A stretch of DNA of 64,000 nt from Companilactobacillus formosensis (GTDB lineage Bacteria; Bacillota; Bacilli; Lactobacillales; Lactobacillaceae): assembly GCF_005405305.1 (NCBI RefSeq), contig NZ_BJDU01000010.1, forward strand, positions 1 through 64,000, read 5' to 3'. Below, piece after piece: positions 15,907-24,678 of this stretch. Made by a program: the position numbers and the translations under genes. Numbering within the stretch: position 1 is the stretch's first letter; each line of letters starts with the position of its first letter. The notes beneath the pieces were generated by a model, which did not search any database, was not told the origin of the DNA, and was given only the letters and a program-made list of their open reading frames with translations.

Positions 15907-16830
15907 TTAACGCTTAAATATGTGCTCACGGTGGTATTGTAAATAATTTTTATTAGGAGAATATTCTCTATTCATATGTATTTTTCTATTTTTATATTTA
16001 TTTAGTGTTTTATTGAGCTCTGGGTCGTCTGAACTTATGTCGGATAAGATTATGTGTCCTTGATTAGAAAACGTGAAATAGCCTTGTGTAAAAGCTTTTG
16101 AGAGTATTTTTGTTAAGCAGATGCCATTACGATAATCTAGACGAGTGGTTTTATTTTCTTCCCATGGGATTATTCTAGTGGCAACTAGTTCATCCTCATC
16201 AGAGGCTCCAGTTAGAGCTGATTTATAATGATAATTAAATTTTACTTGGTCGGAGAAATATTTATCTGCGGCTCTGCGAGTTGGGACTCCTTTGGCGGTA
16301 TCTTCAATTGTATACAATTCGTGCCTTTGAGCTTGGTAACATTTGACCGACAATGATTCTTCAGCACTAGACAAATTGTCAAACTCTGGAGACAAATTGT
16401 TTTGTCGATCCAATAAACCAAGGAAATCTTCTTTAGTTATTTGGGTAATACCGTTCATGTTGAAGAAGTTAGACCACTTACCTTTGAACTTGCGGAATTC
16501 CCAGTCGAAGGTTCGTAAGTTTTGTTTCATTAGACGATGAGAGAACAGATAGGGATTCTTCACTTCAAGTAGGCTATTGCCTGTTGTTGGGTCTACTTGG
16601 ACTATATCCCCTAGTTGAGCCGCACCATATAGATAGAATTCGTTACCCCATTCGGATGCACTGCCAGATCTGCGATAGATTATCAGGTCTCCGGTGTGGA
16701 GTTGTTTGTTGGTTTGATTTTGGTAGCTGTAGTATTTGAAGTCTACGTCATTGTGGTTGGGACTGGAGCTGGAGTCTATTATGAAGTAATTGGTTTTGGG
16801 ATTGGTTGTTTGAGATTGAGATTTGTACAT
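15907..16830 (-). CDS. HNH_2-like protein with degenerate active site
   Basis: 307 residues. The N-terminal half (about 1-150) is an unassigned domain with a TGDLIIYRR segment. The C-terminal part (about 200-275) follows the HNH_2 pattern: a TG start, LVATRIIPW, RLDYRNGICL and SKAFTQGYFTF. In typical members the second block reads like LVASHIKPW and the third has a histidine before the KAF segment. Here these are Arg and Ser, so nuclease activity is doubtful. GGGAGAAG precedes the ATG. It is divergent from the NUDIX-helicase operon, which suggests a shared island. Confidence 0.65.
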   Translation of the reverse strand: MYKSQSQTTNPKTNYFIIDSSSSPNHNDVDFKYYSYQNQTNKQLHTGDLIIYRRSGSASEWGNEFYLYGAAQLGDIVQVDPTTGNSLLEVKNPYLFSHRLMKQNLRTFDWEFRKFKGKWSNFFNMNGITQITKEDFLGLLDRQNNLSPEFDNLSSAEESLSVKCYQAQRHELYTIEDTAKGVPTRRAADKYFSDQVKFNYHYKSALTGASDEDELVATRIIPWEENKTTRLDYRNGICLTKILSKAFTQGYFTFSNQGHIILSDISSDDPELNKTLNKYKNRKIHMNREYSPNKNYLQYHREHIFKR

Positions 16831-16944
16831 TAATTATCTTCTCCCGTCTTTTAATTATCACTTATATTTTATACTTTGAATTCGGCACATACCTACATTT
16901 GATATACTAGATCTATTGAAATAACGATTAATAGGAGTGGTCAT

Positions 16945-17352
16945 ATGAGTAAAATTCAAGTTGTAGGAGCAATCATTATTAAAGATCACAAATTACTTGC
17001 TGCTCAACGTGCATCCAATCGAGTTCTTGGAGGATATTGGGAATTTCCTGGTGGAAAAATTGAACCCACAGAAACACCAGAAGTTGCAATGTCGCGTGAA
17101 CTCCGAGAAGAGTTTGGAGCAAAAGCAACTGTATTCGAAAAGTTTTCTATTGATGGAATTGCAGAATTAGAATTTGGAGAAGTAATACTTCATTGTTATT
17201 ACGTTAGATTAGACAGTAATATTTCTAAGACTATTGCACACGATGAATTACGCTGGGTTACTCCGAATGAAGCTCTCACATTAGATTGGGCTCCCAGCGA
17301 TGTTTCCGTAATTAAGGCCCTAGCAAAGACTGGATTTAATTATGAATACTGA
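16945..17352 (+). CDS. NUDIX hydrolase, MutT-like nucleotide pyrophosphohydrolase
   Basis: 135 residues with a perfect Nudix box, G-X5-E-X7-REUXEEXGU, at about residues 37-60 (GKIEPTE ... RELREEFGA). This kind of protein usually hydrolyses modified or non-canonical (deoxy)nucleoside triphosphates such as 8-oxo-dGTP or 5-methyl-dCTP; the substrate here is not determinable. AGGAG precedes the ATG. Its last 11 bases overlap the start of the PLD-helicase gene, so the two are very likely translationally coupled and work together. Confidence 0.85.
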   Translation: MSKIQVVGAIIIKDHKLLAAQRASNRVLGGYWEFPGGKIEPTETPEVAMSRELREEFGAKATVFEKFSIDGIAELEFGEVILHCYYVRLDSNISKTIAHDELRWVTPNEALTLDWAPSDVSVIKALAKTGFNYEY

Positions 17353-20236
17353 TTATGAAAAAAATATAAAAAAAGGGATAGATTTTGGTTTTATTGATAA
17401 TTCAATCGAATCACTAGATCGTTATCAGCCCTCACTTGTAACTAACCATAATGGAACTGTACTTGATACATTGGAAGAAGAATTACGTAGTACCAAATCA
17501 TTTACCATTGCAGTAGCATTTGTCACATCTGATGGCTTATTAGATTTAAAAAGTACCTTAGCCGATATCGCATCTCATGGTATACGAGGCAGATTAATCA
17601 CATCAACCTATTTAAAATTTAATAACCCAAATATGTTCGAAGATCTGTCTTACATTCCTAATCTAGATGTTAGAGTTTTACATCAAGAAGGATTCCATAC
17701 AAAAGCTTACTATTTTAATCATGGTAATTATGAAAGTATTTTAGTTGGAAGCGCCAATTTAACTCAAAATGCTCTGAAGAAAAACTTTGAATGGAATCTA
17801 AGAGTAACTTCTACTGAACGTGGAGATATTGTTCAAAGTGTCAAAAGAGAATTGGACGACCTTTGGCAAAAGGCGACGCCTCTAACTAACTCTTGGATAG
17901 AAAAATATCGTCAAAATTGGGAACCACCAGCTCTTTCAGTATCAGAGCCCTCTCAAAAAGAGCAAGCACCTGGAACAATTTCACCTAATGAAATGCAAAA
18001 TAACGCCTTAATGTCGTTAAAAGATTTAAGAGAAAAAGAACATGCTAAAAAAGCTCTAGTGGTCGCAGCGACAGGAACAGGAAAAACGTATTTAGCGGCC
18101 TTTGATGTTAGAAACGTCAAACCTAAAAGAGTCTTATTTGTTGTACACCGCGCACAAATTCTGGAACAAGCAAAAGAAAGTTTCCAAAAAATCTTGGGCG
18201 GTCCCGATAAAGATTACGGCATACTTAGTGGAAGTAAAAAGCAAATTGATGCTCGTTATCTTTTTGCTACAGTAAACATGGCTTCTGACGAAAACGTTTG
18301 TAAGCAATTGGATTCAAAGAGATTTGATTACATAATTATTGATGAAGCTCATCGTGTCAGCGAGAATCAAGCCGGCGAAAAACAAACAATGTATCAAAAA
18401 TTAATGAATTTTTATGAGCCAAAATTTATGCTCGGCATGACCGCCACACCAGAACGTACCGATGGTACAAATGTCTATGCATATTTTGACTACCATCTGG
18501 CCTATGAAATTTCTCTTTTGGACGCCTTAGACCATAATTTTCTTACACCATTCCACTACATTGGCGTAACAGACTACGAAATAGATGGCCATATTATAGA
18601 TGACAAAACTAGTTTAAAATATTTAGTTTCTGATGAAAGAGTTAATTATATTGTAGATAAAACTAAGTACTATGGCCCACGTGGAGAAAATGTTCATGGT
18701 CTAATCTTTGTTAGTCGTATAGAAGAAGGCCGTGATTTAGTAACCAAATTAAAATTGCGAGGTATAAATGCCCAATTCGTCTCAGCTGTGGATTCAATCG
18801 ACACTAGAGAAAAGGCCGTTCGAAAACTAATCAAGGGTGAACTCCAATATATCGTAACTATCGATATCTTTAATGAAGGTGTTGATATTCCTTGCCTAAA
18901 TCAAATTGTTATGATGCGCCCTACTAAGTCCAGTATTATATTTTTGCAACAACTTGGACGAGGATTACGTAAATTCCCTGGTAAAACATCAGTTACCGTA
19001 TTAGATTTCATTGGAAATTATGATGAAAATTATATGATCCCGATGGCTTTTGACCAATCAAACACCAGTAATAAGGAAAAAATACGAAAACAAATTATTA
19101 GTCCTAGTATTTCTGGAGTCTCTACCATTCACTTTGAGGAAGTAGCTCGTAATAGAGTACTCAAAGCTGTCTCAAAAGCTTCATTAGAAAGTATGAAAAG
19201 ATTCCGAGATGCCTACAATAATCTAAAAGATAAGATCGGTCTTCGACCACCTATGTTTATGGATTTTGCCAAATTAGGAACCATCACTGTTTCTGATATA
19301 GTACATAAATTTAATACTATATATGATATGCAATTAAAATTTGAAAAAGGATCTTCTCAATCATTAAACGAAAAGCAATACGCATTTTTAGATTTTATTT
19401 CCAGAGAAATAACTGTTTCAAAGCGTCCAGTTGAAGCTTGGATTTTAAAACAATTATCAATAAAAAAGGTTCTAACCGATACTGAAATCTTATCCGGGCT
19501 TCAAGCTGCAAATATCTTTTACGATAATGATTCTTTAAAAAACGTCGCTTCCATACTAAACCTAAGTTATTTCATGGATAGGAATCGTCAAAAATATGGT
19601 GACACGCCTTTAATCAATCATTATGACAACAACTGGGAACTAACCTCTGAATTCAAATCGGCTTTAAATTCAAAAGAATTCAAAAAATATTTTGAAGATG
19701 CTATCAATGTAAACTTATTAAAACTTCAAAATCATCCATTAGCTTTCAGCAATCGTTTTATTATTGGCGAAAAATACTATCGTACTGATGTTATTAAATT
19801 ACTAAATTGGCAAAAAGAACAAAACGGTCAAAATGTTGGCGGTTATATTATGAGATCTGATTCCAAGTTTTTACCTGTTTTTATAGCATTAGAGAAAACT
19901 GAGAATTTTCAAAATAAAATGGCCTATGAAGATGCATTCTTAGATCGTTCAACAATGAGATGGTTTTCAAAGAGTGGTCGTTCAACTACTAGTAAAACCG
20001 AAAGTAAAATTATTAGTAATAAAGACTTTGGAATGATTCAATTATTCGTTAAAAAATCCGATGATGACAAGCGTGAAGGTAAAGATTTTTATTACTTGGG
20101 ATCTGCACGTGTTATAAATGCTGAAGATAAAATTGCTAGAAATTCGGACGATAAAAAAACGAAATTAATTGATTTTACTCTTCGACTCCAACGAGAAGTT
20201 GATTTAAGTTTATATCGTGCTTTGACGGAAAGCTGA
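17342..20236 (+). CDS. PLD nuclease-SF2 helicase-DUF3427 protein, copy 1
   Basis: 964 residues. Domains in order: a PLD-like nuclease domain with one HxK...GSANLT motif (H119, K121), an SF2 DEAD/DEAH helicase with Walker A ATGTGKT near 240, DEAH near 335, MTATPERTDG and motif VI QQLGRGLRK, then a C-terminal DUF3427 block (about 750-950). The single PLD motif implies that dimers form the active site. It has no good ribosome binding site of its own and starts inside the NUDIX gene. Third codon positions are more A/T-rich than in copy 2. A role in DNA repair or phage defence is inferred from domains. Confidence 0.85.
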   Translation: MNTDYEKNIKKGIDFGFIDNSIESLDRYQPSLVTNHNGTVLDTLEEELRSTKSFTIAVAFVTSDGLLDLKSTLADIASHGIRGRLITSTYLKFNNPNMFEDLSYIPNLDVRVLHQEGFHTKAYYFNHGNYESILVGSANLTQNALKKNFEWNLRVTSTERGDIVQSVKRELDDLWQKATPLTNSWIEKYRQNWEPPALSVSEPSQKEQAPGTISPNEMQNNALMSLKDLREKEHAKKALVVAATGTGKTYLAAFDVRNVKPKRVLFVVHRAQILEQAKESFQKILGGPDKDYGILSGSKKQIDARYLFATVNMASDENVCKQLDSKRFDYIIIDEAHRVSENQAGEKQTMYQKLMNFYEPKFMLGMTATPERTDGTNVYAYFDYHLAYEISLLDALDHNFLTPFHYIGVTDYEIDGHIIDDKTSLKYLVSDERVNYIVDKTKYYGPRGENVHGLIFVSRIEEGRDLVTKLKLRGINAQFVSAVDSIDTREKAVRKLIKGELQYIVTIDIFNEGVDIPCLNQIVMMRPTKSSIIFLQQLGRGLRKFPGKTSVTVLDFIGNYDENYMIPMAFDQSNTSNKEKIRKQIISPSISGVSTIHFEEVARNRVLKAVSKASLESMKRFRDAYNNLKDKIGLRPPMFMDFAKLGTITVSDIVHKFNTIYDMQLKFEKGSSQSLNEKQYAFLDFISREITVSKRPVEAWILKQLSIKKVLTDTEILSGLQAANIFYDNDSLKNVASILNLSYFMDRNRQKYGDTPLINHYDNNWELTSEFKSALNSKEFKKYFEDAINVNLLKLQNHPLAFSNRFIIGEKYYRTDVIKLLNWQKEQNGQNVGGYIMRSDSKFLPVFIALEKTENFQNKMAYEDAFLDRSTMRWFSKSGRSTTSKTESKIISNKDFGMIQLFVKKSDDDKREGKDFYYLGSARVINAEDKIARNSDDKKTKLIDFTLRLQREVDLSLYRALTES

Positions 20237-20255
20237 CAACAACCCATAAATTATA

Positions 20256-20283
20256 GGCTCCCTTAATTAGGAGTCTATTTTTA
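20256..20283 (+). terminator. Terminator between the two helicase copies
   Basis: TAGGCTCC pairs with GGAGTCTA (one G-T pair), followed by a T run. The two copies are therefore separate transcription units. Confidence 0.7.
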
Positions 20284-20355
20284 TACAGTAAATCTCTCCC
20301 CATTGCTACATCTGCTATACTTATCCCAAAATCAATCACAATTAGGAGCTCACTA

Positions 20356-23241
20356 ATGAATACCAACCAAGAAATCAACAAAGGTGTAAACTTTGGCTTT
20401 ATCGACAATTCAATCCAATCACTATCTCGCTATCAACCAGCTCTAGTGACCAACCAAAATGGCACAGTTCTCGACACGATTGAAGATGAACTGCGTAATG
20501 CCACAACATTTACGATTGCAGTTGCCTTTGTTACTTCTGGTGGTCTACTAGATCTAAAGAGTACCCTAGCTGACCTTGCAACTCACGGTGTTCACGGGAA
20601 ACTTATTACTTCAACTTACCTTGGTTTCAACAATCCTCAAGTCTTTGAAGATTTACTCCAAATTCCCAATCTCGATGTCAAAGTTTTAGATCAAGATGGA
20701 TTTCACACTAAGGCTTATTATTTCAATCACGACGACTACGAAAGTCTAGTAATTGGAAGTGCCAACTTAACTCAAAACGCTTTGAAAAATAATTTTGAAT
20801 GGAATCTACGCATCACTTCAACTGAACGCGGTGAAATTGTTCGTAATGCTAAATCTGAACTGGAGAAACTTTGGCAACAGGCTACTCCACTAACTCAAGC
20901 ATGGATTGATGAATACAAAGAGGATTGGCAACCAAATTACTCATCGTTTTCTCGAAAGAAAAAAATTAATAAATCTGGCAAAATCATTCCCAATCAGATG
21001 CAAAAGCCAGCTTTAGAAGCTTTGAAACACCTTCGAGATGCTCAACATGCCAAAAAAGGCCTAGTCGTTGCGGCCACTGGAACTGGAAAAACTTACTTAG
21101 CAGCTTTTGATGTCCAACAATTTCAACCTAAACGACTATTATTTGTCGTCCATCGAGAACAAATTTTGCGCAAAGCAATGTCTAGTTTTCGAGAGATTTT
21201 AGGTGGTTCTGACAGTGATTACGGCATTCTCAGCGGCAGTCAAAAAAATCTCAATGCTCGCTATCTTTTTGCCACCGTCAATATGGTTTCCAAAAAATCA
21301 ATCCGTGAACAGCTTGGTGCCAAAGCCTTTGACTACATAATCATCGACGAAGCTCATCGAGTTGGTCAAAATAATCACGGTGAAAAAGAAACTATGTACC
21401 AGCGTTTGATGAATTTTTACAAACCACAATTCATGTTGGGAATGACTGCCACTCCTGAACGAACTGATGGGACGAATGTCTACGAATATTTTGATTACAA
21501 TTTGGCCTATGAAATATCTTTGCTAGATTCATTGGATCATAATTTGTTGACGCCTTTTCACTACATTGGTGTCACTGACTATGAAAAAAATGGCGAAGTA
21601 ATCGACGACAAGACTAGTCTCAAGTATCTCGTATCCGACGAACGGGTTAATCATCTAATTGAAAAAACTAACTATTATGGTCCCAGAAAAGACTCTGTCC
21701 ACGGTTTAATTTTTGTCAGTCGTATTGCTGAGGGACATGAATTGACCATCAAACTGACTAATAAAGGTATCAATGCTCAATTTGTTTCCGCCGAAGATAC
21801 TGTCGAAGCACGCGAAAAAGCAGTTCACCGACTAACTAAAGGTGAACTGCAATATATCATCACGGTTGATATTTTTAATGAGGGTGTCGACATTCCAATT
21901 CTCAATCAAATTGTCATGATGCGTCCTACCAAATCTAGCATCATCTTCCTTCAACAATTAGGTCGTGGTTTGCGTAAATTTGCCCACAAAGAATACGTTA
22001 CTATTTTAGACTTCATCGGTAATTACGACGAAAATTATATGATCCCGATGGCCTTTGACCGTTCACACACTAATAATAAAGAAAAAATCCGTAAACAAAT
22101 TATCAGCCCCAGTATCTCCGGTGTTTCAACGATTCACTTTGAAGAAGTTGCTCGACAAAAAATTCTTGCTTCTGTTTCTAAAGCTCGCTTGAACGACATG
22201 AAACGATTCAAAACTGCTTATCAAAATCTCAAGGAAAAAATCGGCTTACGTCAACCCATGCTCTTGGATTTTGCCAAAATGGGTAACATCGAAGTTCCTG
22301 ATATAATTGATAAATTCGTCACTCTCTACGATATGCAAAACAAATTTGAAGATGATTTTTCAAACGTCCTCACTGAAAAACAATATGCCTTTTTAAAATT
22401 CATCTCCGCAGAAATCACCGTTTCCAAACGCCCTGTTGAAGCTTGGATTTTGAAACAATTATTAGACAAACCAGTTTTAAATGATGAAGAAATTTTATCA
22501 GGCTTAAAAGTCCAAAATATTTTTTGCGATAAAGAAACTTTGGATAACGTGGCATCAGTTTTGTGCTTCAATTATTTCTCAAAAGTAAAACGAAAGAAAT
22601 ACGGTCAAATGATTTTGATCGACCGCACTAACAACAAGTGGACTTTCACTTCAGAATTACAACAACTGCTGCAATCACTAATTTTTAAAAGTTATTTTGA
22701 AGATGCCCTTGATGCAAATCTCTGGAATGTATCGCAAAACCCAGAAATTTACCAAAATAGATTCACTATCGGAGAAAAATACTACCGTCCGGATATTATT
22801 AAGATGCTGAATTGGACAAAGGAACCCAACTACATAAATATCGGTGGCTATGCTCTAAGAGATGATGAACGTTTCCTCCCTGTCTTTATCTCTTTGAAGA
22901 AAAATAAAAAAATTCAAAATAAGCTAGTCTATGACAACACTTTTCTCGACCGTTCAACAATTCCCCTATTTTCTAAAAGTGGGCGTACAACTTCTAGTGC
23001 AGTAGAAAGTAAATTATTAAAAAATAAAGATTTCAGCATGATTCAACTATTCATCAGAAAATCTAACGACGACCGCATAGATGGCAAGGACTTCTACTAT
23101 CTTGGATCCGCAAAAACACTCAGTGCTAAAGATATCACCGAAGAAAATATCGACGGCAAGCCAACCAAGTTAGTTGAATTTATCTTGCGATTAGAACACG
23201 AAGTCGACCTAGGCTTATACAGATTTTTAACTGAGGACTAA
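20356..23241 (+). CDS. PLD nuclease-SF2 helicase-DUF3427 protein, copy 2
   Basis: 961 residues, collinear with copy 1 over the full length and about two thirds identical by eye. It is most alike in the PLD and helicase parts and least alike between the helicase and DUF3427. All motifs are intact: HTK...GSANLTQNAL, ATGTGKT, DEAH, MTATPERTDG, QQLGRGLRK. TTAGGAG precedes the ATG, so unlike copy 1 it has its own start signals. No NUDIX gene precedes it. Codon use has more C-ending codons than copy 1, which argues against a recent in-place duplication. The end overlaps the convergent MocR gene by 15 bases. Confidence 0.85.
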   Translation: MNTNQEINKGVNFGFIDNSIQSLSRYQPALVTNQNGTVLDTIEDELRNATTFTIAVAFVTSGGLLDLKSTLADLATHGVHGKLITSTYLGFNNPQVFEDLLQIPNLDVKVLDQDGFHTKAYYFNHDDYESLVIGSANLTQNALKNNFEWNLRITSTERGEIVRNAKSELEKLWQQATPLTQAWIDEYKEDWQPNYSSFSRKKKINKSGKIIPNQMQKPALEALKHLRDAQHAKKGLVVAATGTGKTYLAAFDVQQFQPKRLLFVVHREQILRKAMSSFREILGGSDSDYGILSGSQKNLNARYLFATVNMVSKKSIREQLGAKAFDYIIIDEAHRVGQNNHGEKETMYQRLMNFYKPQFMLGMTATPERTDGTNVYEYFDYNLAYEISLLDSLDHNLLTPFHYIGVTDYEKNGEVIDDKTSLKYLVSDERVNHLIEKTNYYGPRKDSVHGLIFVSRIAEGHELTIKLTNKGINAQFVSAEDTVEAREKAVHRLTKGELQYIITVDIFNEGVDIPILNQIVMMRPTKSSIIFLQQLGRGLRKFAHKEYVTILDFIGNYDENYMIPMAFDRSHTNNKEKIRKQIISPSISGVSTIHFEEVARQKILASVSKARLNDMKRFKTAYQNLKEKIGLRQPMLLDFAKMGNIEVPDIIDKFVTLYDMQNKFEDDFSNVLTEKQYAFLKFISAEITVSKRPVEAWILKQLLDKPVLNDEEILSGLKVQNIFCDKETLDNVASVLCFNYFSKVKRKKYGQMILIDRTNNKWTFTSELQQLLQSLIFKSYFEDALDANLWNVSQNPEIYQNRFTIGEKYYRPDIIKMLNWTKEPNYINIGGYALRDDERFLPVFISLKKNKKIQNKLVYDNTFLDRSTIPLFSKSGRTTSSAVESKLLKNKDFSMIQLFIRKSNDDRIDGKDFYYLGSAKTLSAKDITEENIDGKPTKLVEFILRLEHEVDLGLYRFLTED

Positions 23242-24678
23242 ATCGGCAATTTTTCTCATAGCATCGTTGAATTCTTTTTCCGTGACATAAGCAAACGAAA
23301 TTCGTAACGAACGATTGTGGCGAAAGTCATAAATATCACCAGGATTCAAAAGTATCCCTTTATCCAAGGCTCTCTCAAACAAATCATCAGCTTCTACATC
23401 AGGATTAAAAGTCAGCCAAATATAAAAACCGCCAACTGGCACGTCCCATGTAGCAATATCCTTAAAATATTTTTCCAAAGTTTCCAAGGCATTATCACGA
23501 CGTTTCTTCAAAGTAATCTTCAAATCAGCCAAGTATTGATCATACATACCACTTTCCAAAAACTCCGCAAACACTAGTTGCGACAAAGAACTTGCTCCAT
23601 AGTCCATTTGCATTTTGGCATCTCCTAGTCGCTTGATAACTGCCTCTGGAGCAATTACCCAACCAATTCTCAGTCCCGGTGCCAAAGCTTTCGAAGCACT
23701 GCCTAAATACATCACCATACCATTTCCATCGATTGCCTTGAGTGGACGTGGTGCTTTTTTAAAACACAATTCTTGATAGACTCCATCTTCTATGATTGGC
23801 AGTCTATTTTTTATGCAAAAATTCATCAGTTCTTGACGACGAACATCACTCATTGTAATGCCAGTAGGATTTTGATTAGTCGGAATCGTATAAAGAATTG
23901 CCGGCTGGTTTTCTTTTAAAAATTTCTCCATTTTCCAATATTCCAAGCCTTCATGATCCATAGAAATGCCGTTTAATTTCAACCCAGTCGACTGAAACAT
24001 CTGTATTGATTTCAGATAAGTCGGCGCCTCAGTAAAAACAGTGCTGCCTTCTTCCAACATGCACGACGAAATCAGTTGCAAACCTTGCAGTGCACCTGAA
24101 GTTATCAAGATATTATCTACTGATGCTTTTACTCCAATTTTTCTCATGTGTTCAACTATCGCCAAACGCAAATTCATCATTCCTAAAGGTTCAGCGTATC
24201 CTAAAGAAGTAACCTCGATACTCAATTTTTGCATAATTTTTGACCACATTTTTTGCGGGAATAATCGTGGATCTAATTCACCAGTTCCCAAACGAATGAT
24301 ATCTGGTGAAAATTCCAATTGATTTATCTGCTGCAGCCGACGGTCACTTTCTTTTAAATATCCGGCTGAAATAAATTTTTTCCAACTTGGTTTGGTTGGC
24401 AACATCACCGACCAGGTATTACTGACAATCCTCGTTCCCGCACCGTGTTGGCCAGAAATAATTCCATAAGACGTCAGTTCATCGATAGCTGTTGAAATGG
24501 TGCTACGATTGACTTTGAACATCAATGCTAAAGCCCGTTGTGACGGCAATCTTGAGTTGATAGGCCAAGCTCCACTAGCGACTTGATCACAGACGTATTG
24601 CACGATTTGGCGGTAAACCGGAATTTTAACTTTTTTATCAGGTTGCCAAGTAATTTGTAGTGGTATATTTTTTTGCAT
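23227..24678 (-). CDS. MocR family (GntR-aminotransferase) regulator
   Basis: 483 residues. A GntR-type winged helix (about 15-80, with LPSQRALALMFKVNRSTIS) is fused to a fold-type I aminotransferase-like domain. The PLP lysine is in GSASKALAPGLRIGW near residue 320. Members such as PdxR and GabR use PLP as an effector. It is divergent from a LysE-family exporter, which is the likely target. Repeated TTTGG-TGG motifs lie in the shared promoter region. Confidence 0.88.
   Translation of the reverse strand: MQKNIPLQITWQPDKKVKIPVYRQIVQYVCDQVASGAWPINSRLPSQRALALMFKVNRSTISTAIDELTSYGIISGQHGAGTRIVSNTWSVMLPTKPSWKKFISAGYLKESDRRLQQINQLEFSPDIIRLGTGELDPRLFPQKMWSKIMQKLSIEVTSLGYAEPLGMMNLRLAIVEHMRKIGVKASVDNILITSGALQGLQLISSCMLEEGSTVFTEAPTYLKSIQMFQSTGLKLNGISMDHEGLEYWKMEKFLKENQPAILYTIPTNQNPTGITMSDVRRQELMNFCIKNRLPIIEDGVYQELCFKKAPRPLKAIDGNGMVMYLGSASKALAPGLRIGWVIAPEAVIKRLGDAKMQMDYGASSLSQLVFAEFLESGMYDQYLADLKITLKKRRDNALETLEKYFKDIATWDVPVGGFYIWLTFNPDVEADDLFERALDKGILLNPGDIYDFRHNRSLRISFAYVTEKEFNDAMRKIADLVLS

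Follow-up and report, generated by a model that had tools for sequence, protein, structure and literature searches.

The window analysed here is a stretch of 64,000 nucleotides from Companilactobacillus formosensis (assembly GCF_005405305.1, contig NZ_BJDU01000010.1, positions 1 to 64,000 of the forward strand). The locus in question comprises a gene for a small NUDIX pyrophosphohydrolase, two consecutive genes for large helicase-nucleases of the SauUSI kind, hereafter copies a and b, and a divergent HNH-like gene (Table 1). A first-pass annotation, made from the letters of the sequence, had described four open reading frames (ORFs), an 11-base overlap of the NUDIX gene with the first helicase gene, a second helicase copy and a divergent HNH-like gene, and this layout was confirmed throughout. 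The overlap makes translational coupling of NUDIX and copy a possible; in related NUDIX-SauUSI loci the two genes often overlap by 4, 8 or 11 bases. A terminator-like hairpin lies between the two copies, and by this sign NUDIX would form a unit with copy a, and copy b a separate one. This indication is weak, as the terminator scan of the region returned 10 terminator-like sites against 5.1 expected and the hairpin counts for little on its own.

Table 1. Coordinates of the features discussed, in the window and in comparison loci (numbered L)
Feature	Source	Position	Strand	Size and make-up	Matches and remarks
carA	window	ends 15431			flanks the locus
HNH-like gene	window	15907-16830	-	307 amino acids	divergent; HNH_2 7.8e-05 (Pfam); PADLOC HNH 3.2e-29
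NUDIX pyrophosphohydrolase gene	window	16945-17352	+	135 amino acids, NudG/MutT2-like	Pfam NUDIX 2.8e-19; PADLOC candidate PDC-S07 5.7e-40
Overlap of NUDIX end and copy a start	window	17342-17352	+	11 bases	
SauUSI copy a	window	17342-20236	+	964 amino acids; PLD nuclease, SF2 ATPase, coupler, SRA (DUF3427)	Asp-type
Terminator-like hairpin with T tail	window	20253-20278	+		between copy a and copy b
SauUSI copy b	window	20356-23241	+	961 amino acids	Asn-type; no NUDIX directly adjoining
MocR-type regulator	window	23227-24678			flanks the locus
C5 cytosine methylase (PF00145)	L068	8220-9458			beside Asn-type SauUSI without NUDIX
C5 cytosine methylase (PF00145)	L473	7604-8875			beside Asn-type SauUSI without NUDIX
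C5 cytosine methylase (PF00145)	L132	4751-6139			beside Asp-type SauUSI without NUDIX
McrA-like HNH nuclease fused to C-terminal NUDIX	L185	4143-5387			N-terminal part without Pfam assignment
McrA-like HNH nuclease fused to C-terminal NUDIX	L187	4950-6218			
McrA-like HNH nuclease fused to C-terminal NUDIX	L489	770-2008			
NUDIX, SauUSI and MazG-like genes	L457	4580-8215			Lactiplantibacillus plantarum plasmid NZ_CP028230.1
NUDIX locus without SauUSI	L384	4316-6471			
Two extra genes at a tandem locus	L475	10612-11982		332 and 122 amino acids	between NUDIX and HNH-like gene

Judged by homology along their whole length, both PLD-helicase-DUF3427 proteins are full-length SauUSI, a type IV restriction enzyme for 5-methyl- and 5-hydroxymethylcytosine. 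Pfam found PLDc_2, ResIII, Helicase_C and DUF3427 in both. The PADLOC model mREase_IV, which has 953 positions, was matched by copy a over positions 9-952 (E 3.4e-229) and by copy b over 7-952 (E 2.4e-223), and copy a aligned with the SauUSI structure (PDB 7clg) over 11-962 (E 1.5e-220). The first-pass annotation had taken the helicase for part of an undescribed system; given these matches to mREase_IV and 7clg, that claim and the candidate of a new PLD-helicase defence fusion were both dropped. Mokosh type II likewise has PLD plus helicase within one protein, and no Mokosh model was among the PADLOC matches of either copy at E<=0.001.

According to extracts of the literature, which is cited in this form throughout, DUF3427 has been assigned to SauUSI (PMC3874153), and the SauUSI structure consists of a PLD nuclease, an SF2 ATPase, a coupler and an SRA domain (PMC7913695). 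When 5-methylcytosine was modelled as flipped out, it lay in a pocket of Tyr831, Phe841, Ile842 and Trp868, with Asp858 positioned for base-specific hydrogen bonds (PMC7913695). Copy a retains the equivalents of all five residues (Asp864 for Asp858 and Trp874 for Trp868). In copy b the Tyr, Phe and Ile are kept, the Asp858 position holds Asn and the Trp868 position holds Leu. The catalytic His119 and Lys121 of the PLD nuclease were His and Lys in 151 of 151 aligned rows, both window copies included. The two copies are 69% identical over 963 columns, rising to 72-79% across PLD and ATPase and falling to about 60% across coupler and SRA. Copy b is a SauUSI homologue for which cytosine specificity cannot be taken for granted. 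Enzymes are called Asp-type or Asn-type below after the residue at the Asp858 position.

By sequence, the nearest solved relatives of the NUDIX protein were 5x1x, NudG (E. coli Orf135, 2rrk) and MutT2 (5zrc). The AlphaFold model of the window NUDIX had a mean predicted local distance difference test (pLDDT) score of 96.8, and a Foldseek search with it ranked BdRppH first and MutT2 with 5-methyl-deoxycytidine triphosphate (5mdCTP) second. It was the sole match to the PADLOC candidate model PDC-S07 in its own genome at E<=1e-25. NudG has been listed as a 5-methyl-dCTP pyrophosphatase (PMC5389931), with a kcat/Km of 1.3e6 M-1 s-1 for 5-methyl-dCTP and 4.7e4 M-1 s-1 for CTP (PMC5158307). At alignment position 119 (window numbering), the window NUDIX and E. 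coli NudG have Asp and MutT has Asn; the Asp was found in 125 of the 131 SauUSI-linked NUDIX rows. We take this position to be a base reader, MutT reading 8-oxoguanine through its Asn. We regard the window protein as a predicted modified-dCTP pyrophosphatase of the NudG/MutT2 kind, one that would work like NudG without being filed as NudG. A separate feature was noted at position 115, where Trp stands in 125 of 131 linked NUDIX proteins, Leu in NudG, Phe in MutT, and Phe or Leu in the copies linked to SRA-HNH nucleases. This Trp marks the SauUSI-linked NUDIX and may shape the base pocket.

The pairing was surveyed in 211 sources, namely the best 129 loci among the matches listed across 395 genomes from the order to which the window belongs (some 16 further entries, distant or partial, stayed outside the sample), 80 organism-named loci, the stretch L384, which is not a SauUSI locus, and the window. 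Named and other sources may be the same genome, and SauUSI-like ORFs were counted from at least 500 amino acids. A related NUDIX gene lay within 1.2 kb of 173 of 214 SauUSI-like ORFs, 36 had none, and five stood at a contig edge. The first-pass annotation was therefore right to see a real pair, which is widespread, and the association, whose frequency had been set as a check beforehand, was not rare. NUDIX was present at 68 of the 80 organism-named SauUSI loci, whose record titles span Bacilli, Clostridia, Bacteroidota, Actinomycetota, a Vibrio, Methanobrevibacter, Methanolobus and a Bathyarchaeota bin.

Among the 128 linked NUDIX genes of the first 151 sources, 94 lay upstream on the same strand, mostly overlapping SauUSI or a few bases apart. 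Of those downstream of SauUSI, 18 shared its strand and 14 were on the opposite strand (convergent); the other 2 were upstream on the opposite strand (divergent). Since gene order varies, the link between NUDIX and SauUSI is not one frozen operon, and that the genes stay neighbours through such rearrangement indicates a functional link. A tree that included 34 unlinked relatives grouped the linked NUDIX proteins in a clade of 131 leaves, one of them unlinked (support only 0.71). Two proteins labelled as linked, L167 and L173, lay outside this clade and stand beside weak helicase matches. In addition, the NUDIX and SauUSI distances of 124 pairs were correlated (Mantel r 0.72), and none of 2000 permutations reached so high a value. 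Two Staphylococcus records show the pairing for the archetypal SauUSI as well. In the S. aureus contig OR845003.1 (L456), filed as phage, NUDIX ends one base before a 953-amino-acid SauUSI. In NZ_CP077890.1 (L458), a linear Staphylococcus aureus plasmid record, the gene immediately before a fragmented SauUSI is annotated as a (deoxy)nucleoside triphosphate pyrophosphohydrolase, WP_000755954.1, and this protein is identical over the compared stretch to PDB 5x1x ("MutT" of methicillin-resistant S. aureus, MRSA). The OR845003.1 record, although named Staphylococcus phage, looks like bacterial DNA. A phage-borne system was considered and rejected, as the 70 relatives in viral contigs were mostly other helicases by identity and extent, with the best two partial; among phage records nine matched, and the best was that Staphylococcus contig labelled phage.

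The same NUDIX family also occurs beside a second kind of modification-dependent nuclease. Among 119 genomes of the phylum, 43 gave 46 PDC-S07 matches, most of which lie away from SauUSI and SRA-HNH genes, and the family thus includes members that stand alone; five of the 46 adjoined a McrA-like SRA-HNH gene and two were fused to one. The SRA-HNH model PDLC03656 yielded 9 loci from 149 genomes and 4 more from an overlapping set of 378, and a NUDIX of this family was present at 8 of these 13 loci, adjacent in five and fused in three (Table 1). As for the loci without NUDIX, L197 and L486 carry another N-terminal half, the open frame of L487 is short, L203 is broken, and L488 has the usual N-terminal half with no NUDIX within 1.5 kb on reading of its ORFs. 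The SRA-HNH enzyme of L199 matched EcoKMcrA (6ghc) in its HNH part and TagI (6ghs) weakly over residues 47-254 (E 0.003); in another example, Pfam SAD_SRA fell below the cut-off (E 0.001-0.002). The same search within 1.5 kb of other type IV nucleases found no NUDIX at 29 McrC, 30 Mrr_cat or 30 GmrSD_N loci (0/89 together, the Mrr and GmrSD loci being the best 30 of longer lists), and none at 20 of the 29 McrC loci when up to 5 kb on each side, or less at contig ends, was covered. Given 8 of 13 against 0 of 89, the NUDIX partnership follows the SRA reader in this sample, not type IV restriction generally. We also noted that McrBC, itself a 5-methylcytosine reader, was never found paired with NUDIX.

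The overlapping genes and the fusion of a relative to a nuclease would also fit a physical partnership in which NUDIX binds SauUSI, or controls its ATP or dATP, as a regulator or sensor and not as a cleaner of the nucleotide pool. However, the Nudix box residues Gly37, Glu43, Arg51, Glu52, Glu55 and Glu56 were invariant in 128 of 128 linked proteins, indicating that catalysis is kept, and the convergent and divergent arrangements fit strict co-translation poorly. We consider a regulatory role very improbable. A housekeeping role, in which NUDIX removes oxidised nucleotides as MutT does and either hitch-hikes with SauUSI or is useful under restriction stress, draws on the family match to MutT-type enzymes, on the MutT title of the S. 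aureus structure 5x1x, on unlinked NUDIX relatives near unrelated genes, on the calling of PDC-S07 in 99% of Enterobacter genomes, as given in extracts of PMC12851794, and on the match of the PDC-S07 model in E. coli found here, both being what a housekeeping enzyme would show. Set against it are the Asp at the position where E. coli MutT has Asn, the linkage of 173 of 214 SauUSI-like ORFs compared with 0 of 89 for the three other nuclease families, and the correlation with the cytosine-reading residue described next. A housekeeping role thus seems improbable to us, slightly less so than a regulatory one.

The residue at the Asp858 position was compared with the presence of NUDIX in 192 SauUSI rows, after removal of rows at least 97% identical and of ORFs shorter than 780 amino acids. 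Among the NUDIX-linked rows, 148 of 153 had Asp, four Asn and one Glu. The unlinked rows had Asn in 27 of 34, Asp in six and a gap in one, and the five edge rows comprised four Asp and one Asn. The association gave a Fisher p of 8e-22, a value inflated by related sequences. We built a tree from the nuclease and ATPase columns only (185 tips, midpoint root; the five edge rows, the Glu row and the gap row were excluded), on which NUDIX required at least 10 changes and the residue at least 6. When correlated change was tested by likelihood on this tree, the likelihood ratio was 24.9 (4 degrees of freedom, p 5e-5). The log-likelihood was -64.9 with neither dependence, -56.4 when NUDIX loss depended on the residue (loss about 30 times faster on Asn) and -54.2 when the Asp-to-Asn change depended on NUDIX (change almost only without NUDIX). 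An order in which the residue changed first was not borne out (-56.4 vs -54.2 for NUDIX lost first).

The same division was visible within the genus. NUDIX directly adjoins 6 of 7 Asp-type genes (L078 counted by name) and 0 of 15 Asn-type genes, and 4 of these 15, copy b included, stand behind an Asp-type gene with NUDIX. The tandem arrangement of NUDIX, Asp-type and Asn-type genes was found in four genomes (G000, G302, G695 and G687). In other species the Asn-type gene occurs alone (e.g. L474, L477 and L481-L483), and in L484 NUDIX and the Asp-type gene occur alone, with the same HNH-like gene adjoining. Since tandem, Asn-only and NUDIX-plus-Asp loci all occur beside the same HNH-like gene, NUDIX and Asp-type SauUSI behave as a module. 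At the level of whole genomes, C5-methylase carriage was 25 of 95 in genomes with SauUSI vs 45 of 95 in those without (p 0.004, taxonomy uncontrolled); for the comparison of types given below, the Asp-type state of some genomes was taken from near-identical rows, and G297 has a broken SauUSI with the residue unscored.

Starting from what was observed directly, that is, the gene pair, its conservation and co-divergence, the fusion of NUDIX to another SRA-type nuclease and the Asp/Asn-NUDIX correlation, we infer the NUDIX substrate, the purpose of the pairing and the specificity of copy b as follows. We favour, with moderate confidence and by homology, a two-gene modification-dependent restriction system in which NUDIX removes modified dCTP and host DNA is thereby kept free of the mark at which SauUSI cuts. 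By homology with S. aureus SauUSI, copy a would bind DNA, flip 5-methyl- or 5-hydroxymethylcytosine into the SRA pocket and, with ATP, translocate and cut. Such an enzyme would need no methylase and would be tolerated because host DNA is without its mark. Modified deoxycytidine nucleotides could be supplied by digested foreign DNA, salvage or phage, and the digestion of invading methylated DNA would by itself be a possible source. Random incorporation of modified dCTP would turn the host genome into a SauUSI target. NUDIX would hydrolyse 5-methyl-dCTP, and perhaps 5-hydroxymethyl-dCTP, to the monophosphate, and would thereby take the place of the methylase of ordinary restriction-modification, with self protected by keeping the mark out. 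For copy b, which has an Asn reader and lacks an adjoining NUDIX, the probable target is a different modified base or context. The first-pass annotation had suggested that NUDIX deals with modified nucleotides while the helicase-nuclease acts on DNA; modified nucleotides are still the most likely theme, and the helicase has turned out to be an enzyme already described.

In extracts of the 2013 review, SauUSI cloned by itself in E. coli confers restriction (PMC3874153). The E. coli genome, as we read it, has its own NudG, and the linked NUDIX is thus not needed for cutting where that NudG is present. The proposal that NUDIX keeps the mark out of host DNA fits this dispensability, the pairing with SRA cytosine readers and the absence of NUDIX where the reader residue differs. 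Loss of the guard followed by change of the reader is also the order that self-protection would predict.

Several observations weigh against this proposal. First, the correlation has exceptions: six Asp-type rows are without NUDIX and four Asn-type rows have it, and under an order with NUDIX lost first, these four (L062, L087, L094 and L095) must be regains. In addition, independent pairs on the tree comprised four concordant, none discordant and five undecided, so that a sign test does not fall below 0.05, and a model with NUDIX lost first fits just slightly better than one with the residue changed first. C5-methylase carriage did not differ between Asp-type genomes (19/69) and Asn-only genomes (6/26; p 0.80, taxonomy uncontrolled), and in L132 an Asp-type SauUSI without NUDIX adjoins a C5-methylase gene. 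As regards the protein, the Asp at position 119 was also present in 34 of 34 unlinked PDC-S07 relatives and therefore marks the family, not the partnership. The window NUDIX scored 99 bits against NCBIfam NudG (PRK10546; cut-off 156) and 68.5 bits against MutT (TIGR00586; cut-off 97.9), below the cut-off in both cases. Finally, extracts of PMC5158307 give 2-OH-dATP and CTP as further substrates of NudG-type enzymes.

The main rival fits nearly as well. Here NUDIX would be part of the attack, destroying the pool of modified dCTP needed by 5-methyl- or hydroxymethylcytosine phages while SauUSI cuts the DNA already made. The likeness to NudG and MutT2 serves this explanation equally, under it, too, NUDIX would be expected to accompany a cytosine reader, and the plasmid locus L457 adds a second pyrophosphohydrolase, MazG-like. 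Against it, no sign of modified-dCTP use by the hosts' phages turned up, though no search was aimed at it; restriction works in E. coli without the linked NUDIX, in the extracts of the review cited above (PMC3874153); and it offers no explanation for a change of the reader after NUDIX loss, the slightly better-fitting order. We rate a role of NUDIX in attack as rather unlikely, although less so than either housekeeping or regulation.

A wider generalisation of the self-protection proposal is offered tentatively, and we would give it less credence than the proposal itself. SRA-domain modified-cytosine restriction enzymes might be a class self-protected by a dedicated NUDIX instead of a methylase; the Asp-to-Asn change might move SauUSI to another modified base (e.g. 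a 5-substituted uracil) with loss of the guard; and some Companilactobacillus might stack both enzymes against two kinds of phage DNA. Asn229 of thymidylate synthase was considered as a precedent for an Asn/Asp switch between uracil and cytosine and set aside. The C5-methylase genes beside SauUSI without NUDIX (L068, L473 and L132) are of interest for the target of these enzymes.

The co-localisation itself has been counted at least once before. For Streptococcus suis, extracts of PMC12813430 give PDC-S07 as co-localised with restriction-modification (RM) type IV in every one of 23 cases; PDC-S07 is also listed in a table of an S. thermophilus study and mentioned in an archaeal survey, both likewise known from extracts. 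The words Nudix and SauUSI are absent from the main text of PMC12813430. The word Nudix is also absent from the main texts of the S. thermophilus, archaeal and Enterobacter (PMC12851794) PDC-S07 studies, of the SauUSI structure paper (PMC7913695) and the 2013 review (PMC3874153), and of the SRA-HNH and restriction papers checked. Open-licence papers mentioning Nudix together with SauUSI or type IV restriction were unrelated where checked, as far as their extracts go. Within the extracts of the open-licence literature searched, the two-gene system and its meaning are undescribed. The new part is therefore the NUDIX partner, SauUSI itself being already known.

That PDC-S07 is a defence gene by itself is doubtful, given its presence in 99% of Enterobacter genomes (PMC12851794, from extracts) and the position of most of the 46 matches in 119 genomes away from SauUSI and SRA-HNH genes. 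The PADLOC model PDC-S07 (PDLC04899) also catches housekeeping NudG-like enzymes, in E. coli and in those Enterobacter genomes, and a PDC-S07 call that has no type IV enzyme next to it is for this reason probably not defence. The structure of SauUSI has been solved and its action as a barrier to gene transfer studied, yet the papers found do not describe its usual partner. If the partner is a modified-dCTP pyrophosphatase, it would explain how a cell can carry a modified-cytosine nuclease even though nucleotides of that kind may be present in its own pool. In that case the SauUSI-linked part of an orphan PADLOC candidate would gain a function, a solved "MutT" structure (5x1x) would be re-labelled, and a single residue would offer a way to get at what SRA restriction enzymes recognise.

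With regard to the remaining gene of the locus, the C-terminal half of the HNH-like protein matched PDB 6yex (E 4e-18, 15-sequence profile), which we take to be VcaM4I, an EVE-HNH enzyme. In 6yex and in 4 of 4 distant relatives (L298-L301) the HNH motif (SHI.PW) retains its catalytic His; in the 11 aligned proteins of the genus this residue is Arg in 10 and Gly in 1, and the genus proteins have lost Asp residues of the following D..FD stretch. Because these residues are lost, the HNH-like protein is probably not an active HNH nuclease. The N-terminal half is well conserved in the genus and had no Pfam match above the cut-off. The gene is often beside the SauUSI locus in the genus (the window, L052, L061, L068, L474, L475, L477, L481, L482, L484 and L485), and relatives of its protein were absent from the viral contigs. 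An AlphaFold model of the protein, made from 2 sequences, reached a pLDDT of 36.7. A Pfam helix-turn-helix domain was seen in L299, one of the distant relatives.

The neighbours of the locus were carA, recognised by reading, and, by best NCBIfam matches, carB, sbcCD, a MocR-type regulator and a LysE-type exporter. PADLOC on 10 flanking proteins, carB and sbcC not among them, gave a single weak match, SbcD-like (1.3e-07). The defence island proposed in the first-pass annotation was accordingly rejected for the window. Its expectation that the locus is no core gene set was upheld, SauUSI being present in 16 of 31 genomes of the genus. The best named match, a C. crustorum locus, has carB, carA, the HNH-like gene and one SauUSI (70% to copy a).

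Four other loci deserve mention. In L457, NUDIX, SauUSI and a MazG-like pyrophosphohydrolase are consecutive and are followed by a GIY-YIG/Schlafen-type helicase gene, which places two unrelated nucleotide cleaners at one SauUSI locus. L384 holds the only unlinked NUDIX of the linked clade; its neighbours are EVE-like (E 0.003, below cut-off), nucleoside 2-deoxyribosyltransferase-family and AAA_28 proteins, perhaps another modified-nucleotide module. The two extra genes of L475 (Table 1) have a counterpart in L480, where a gene pair of similar sizes adjoins an Asn-type SauUSI.

Four known systems can be compared with the locus. In the S. suis study (PMC12813430, from extracts), PDC-S07, the family of the window NUDIX, showed the same co-localisation with RM type IV and was treated as a stand-alone candidate with no mechanism. 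SRA-HNH enzymes (EcoKMcrA, 6ghc; TagI, 6ghs) have the same NUDIX family adjacent or fused; they differ in that the nuclease is another one, without ATPase, and is not present in the window. NudG and MutT2 (5zrc-5zrp) share with the window NUDIX the sequence, the fold, the Nudix box and the position-119 Asp, whereas the window NUDIX scores below the NudG cut-off and the linked NUDIX proteins mostly have Trp at position 115, where NudG has Leu. Finally, SauUSI (PDB 7clg) has in common with the window copies full-length homology, the PLD HxK motif, the SF2 ATPase and the SRA domain, and differs from both in Met829, which is Gly in each.

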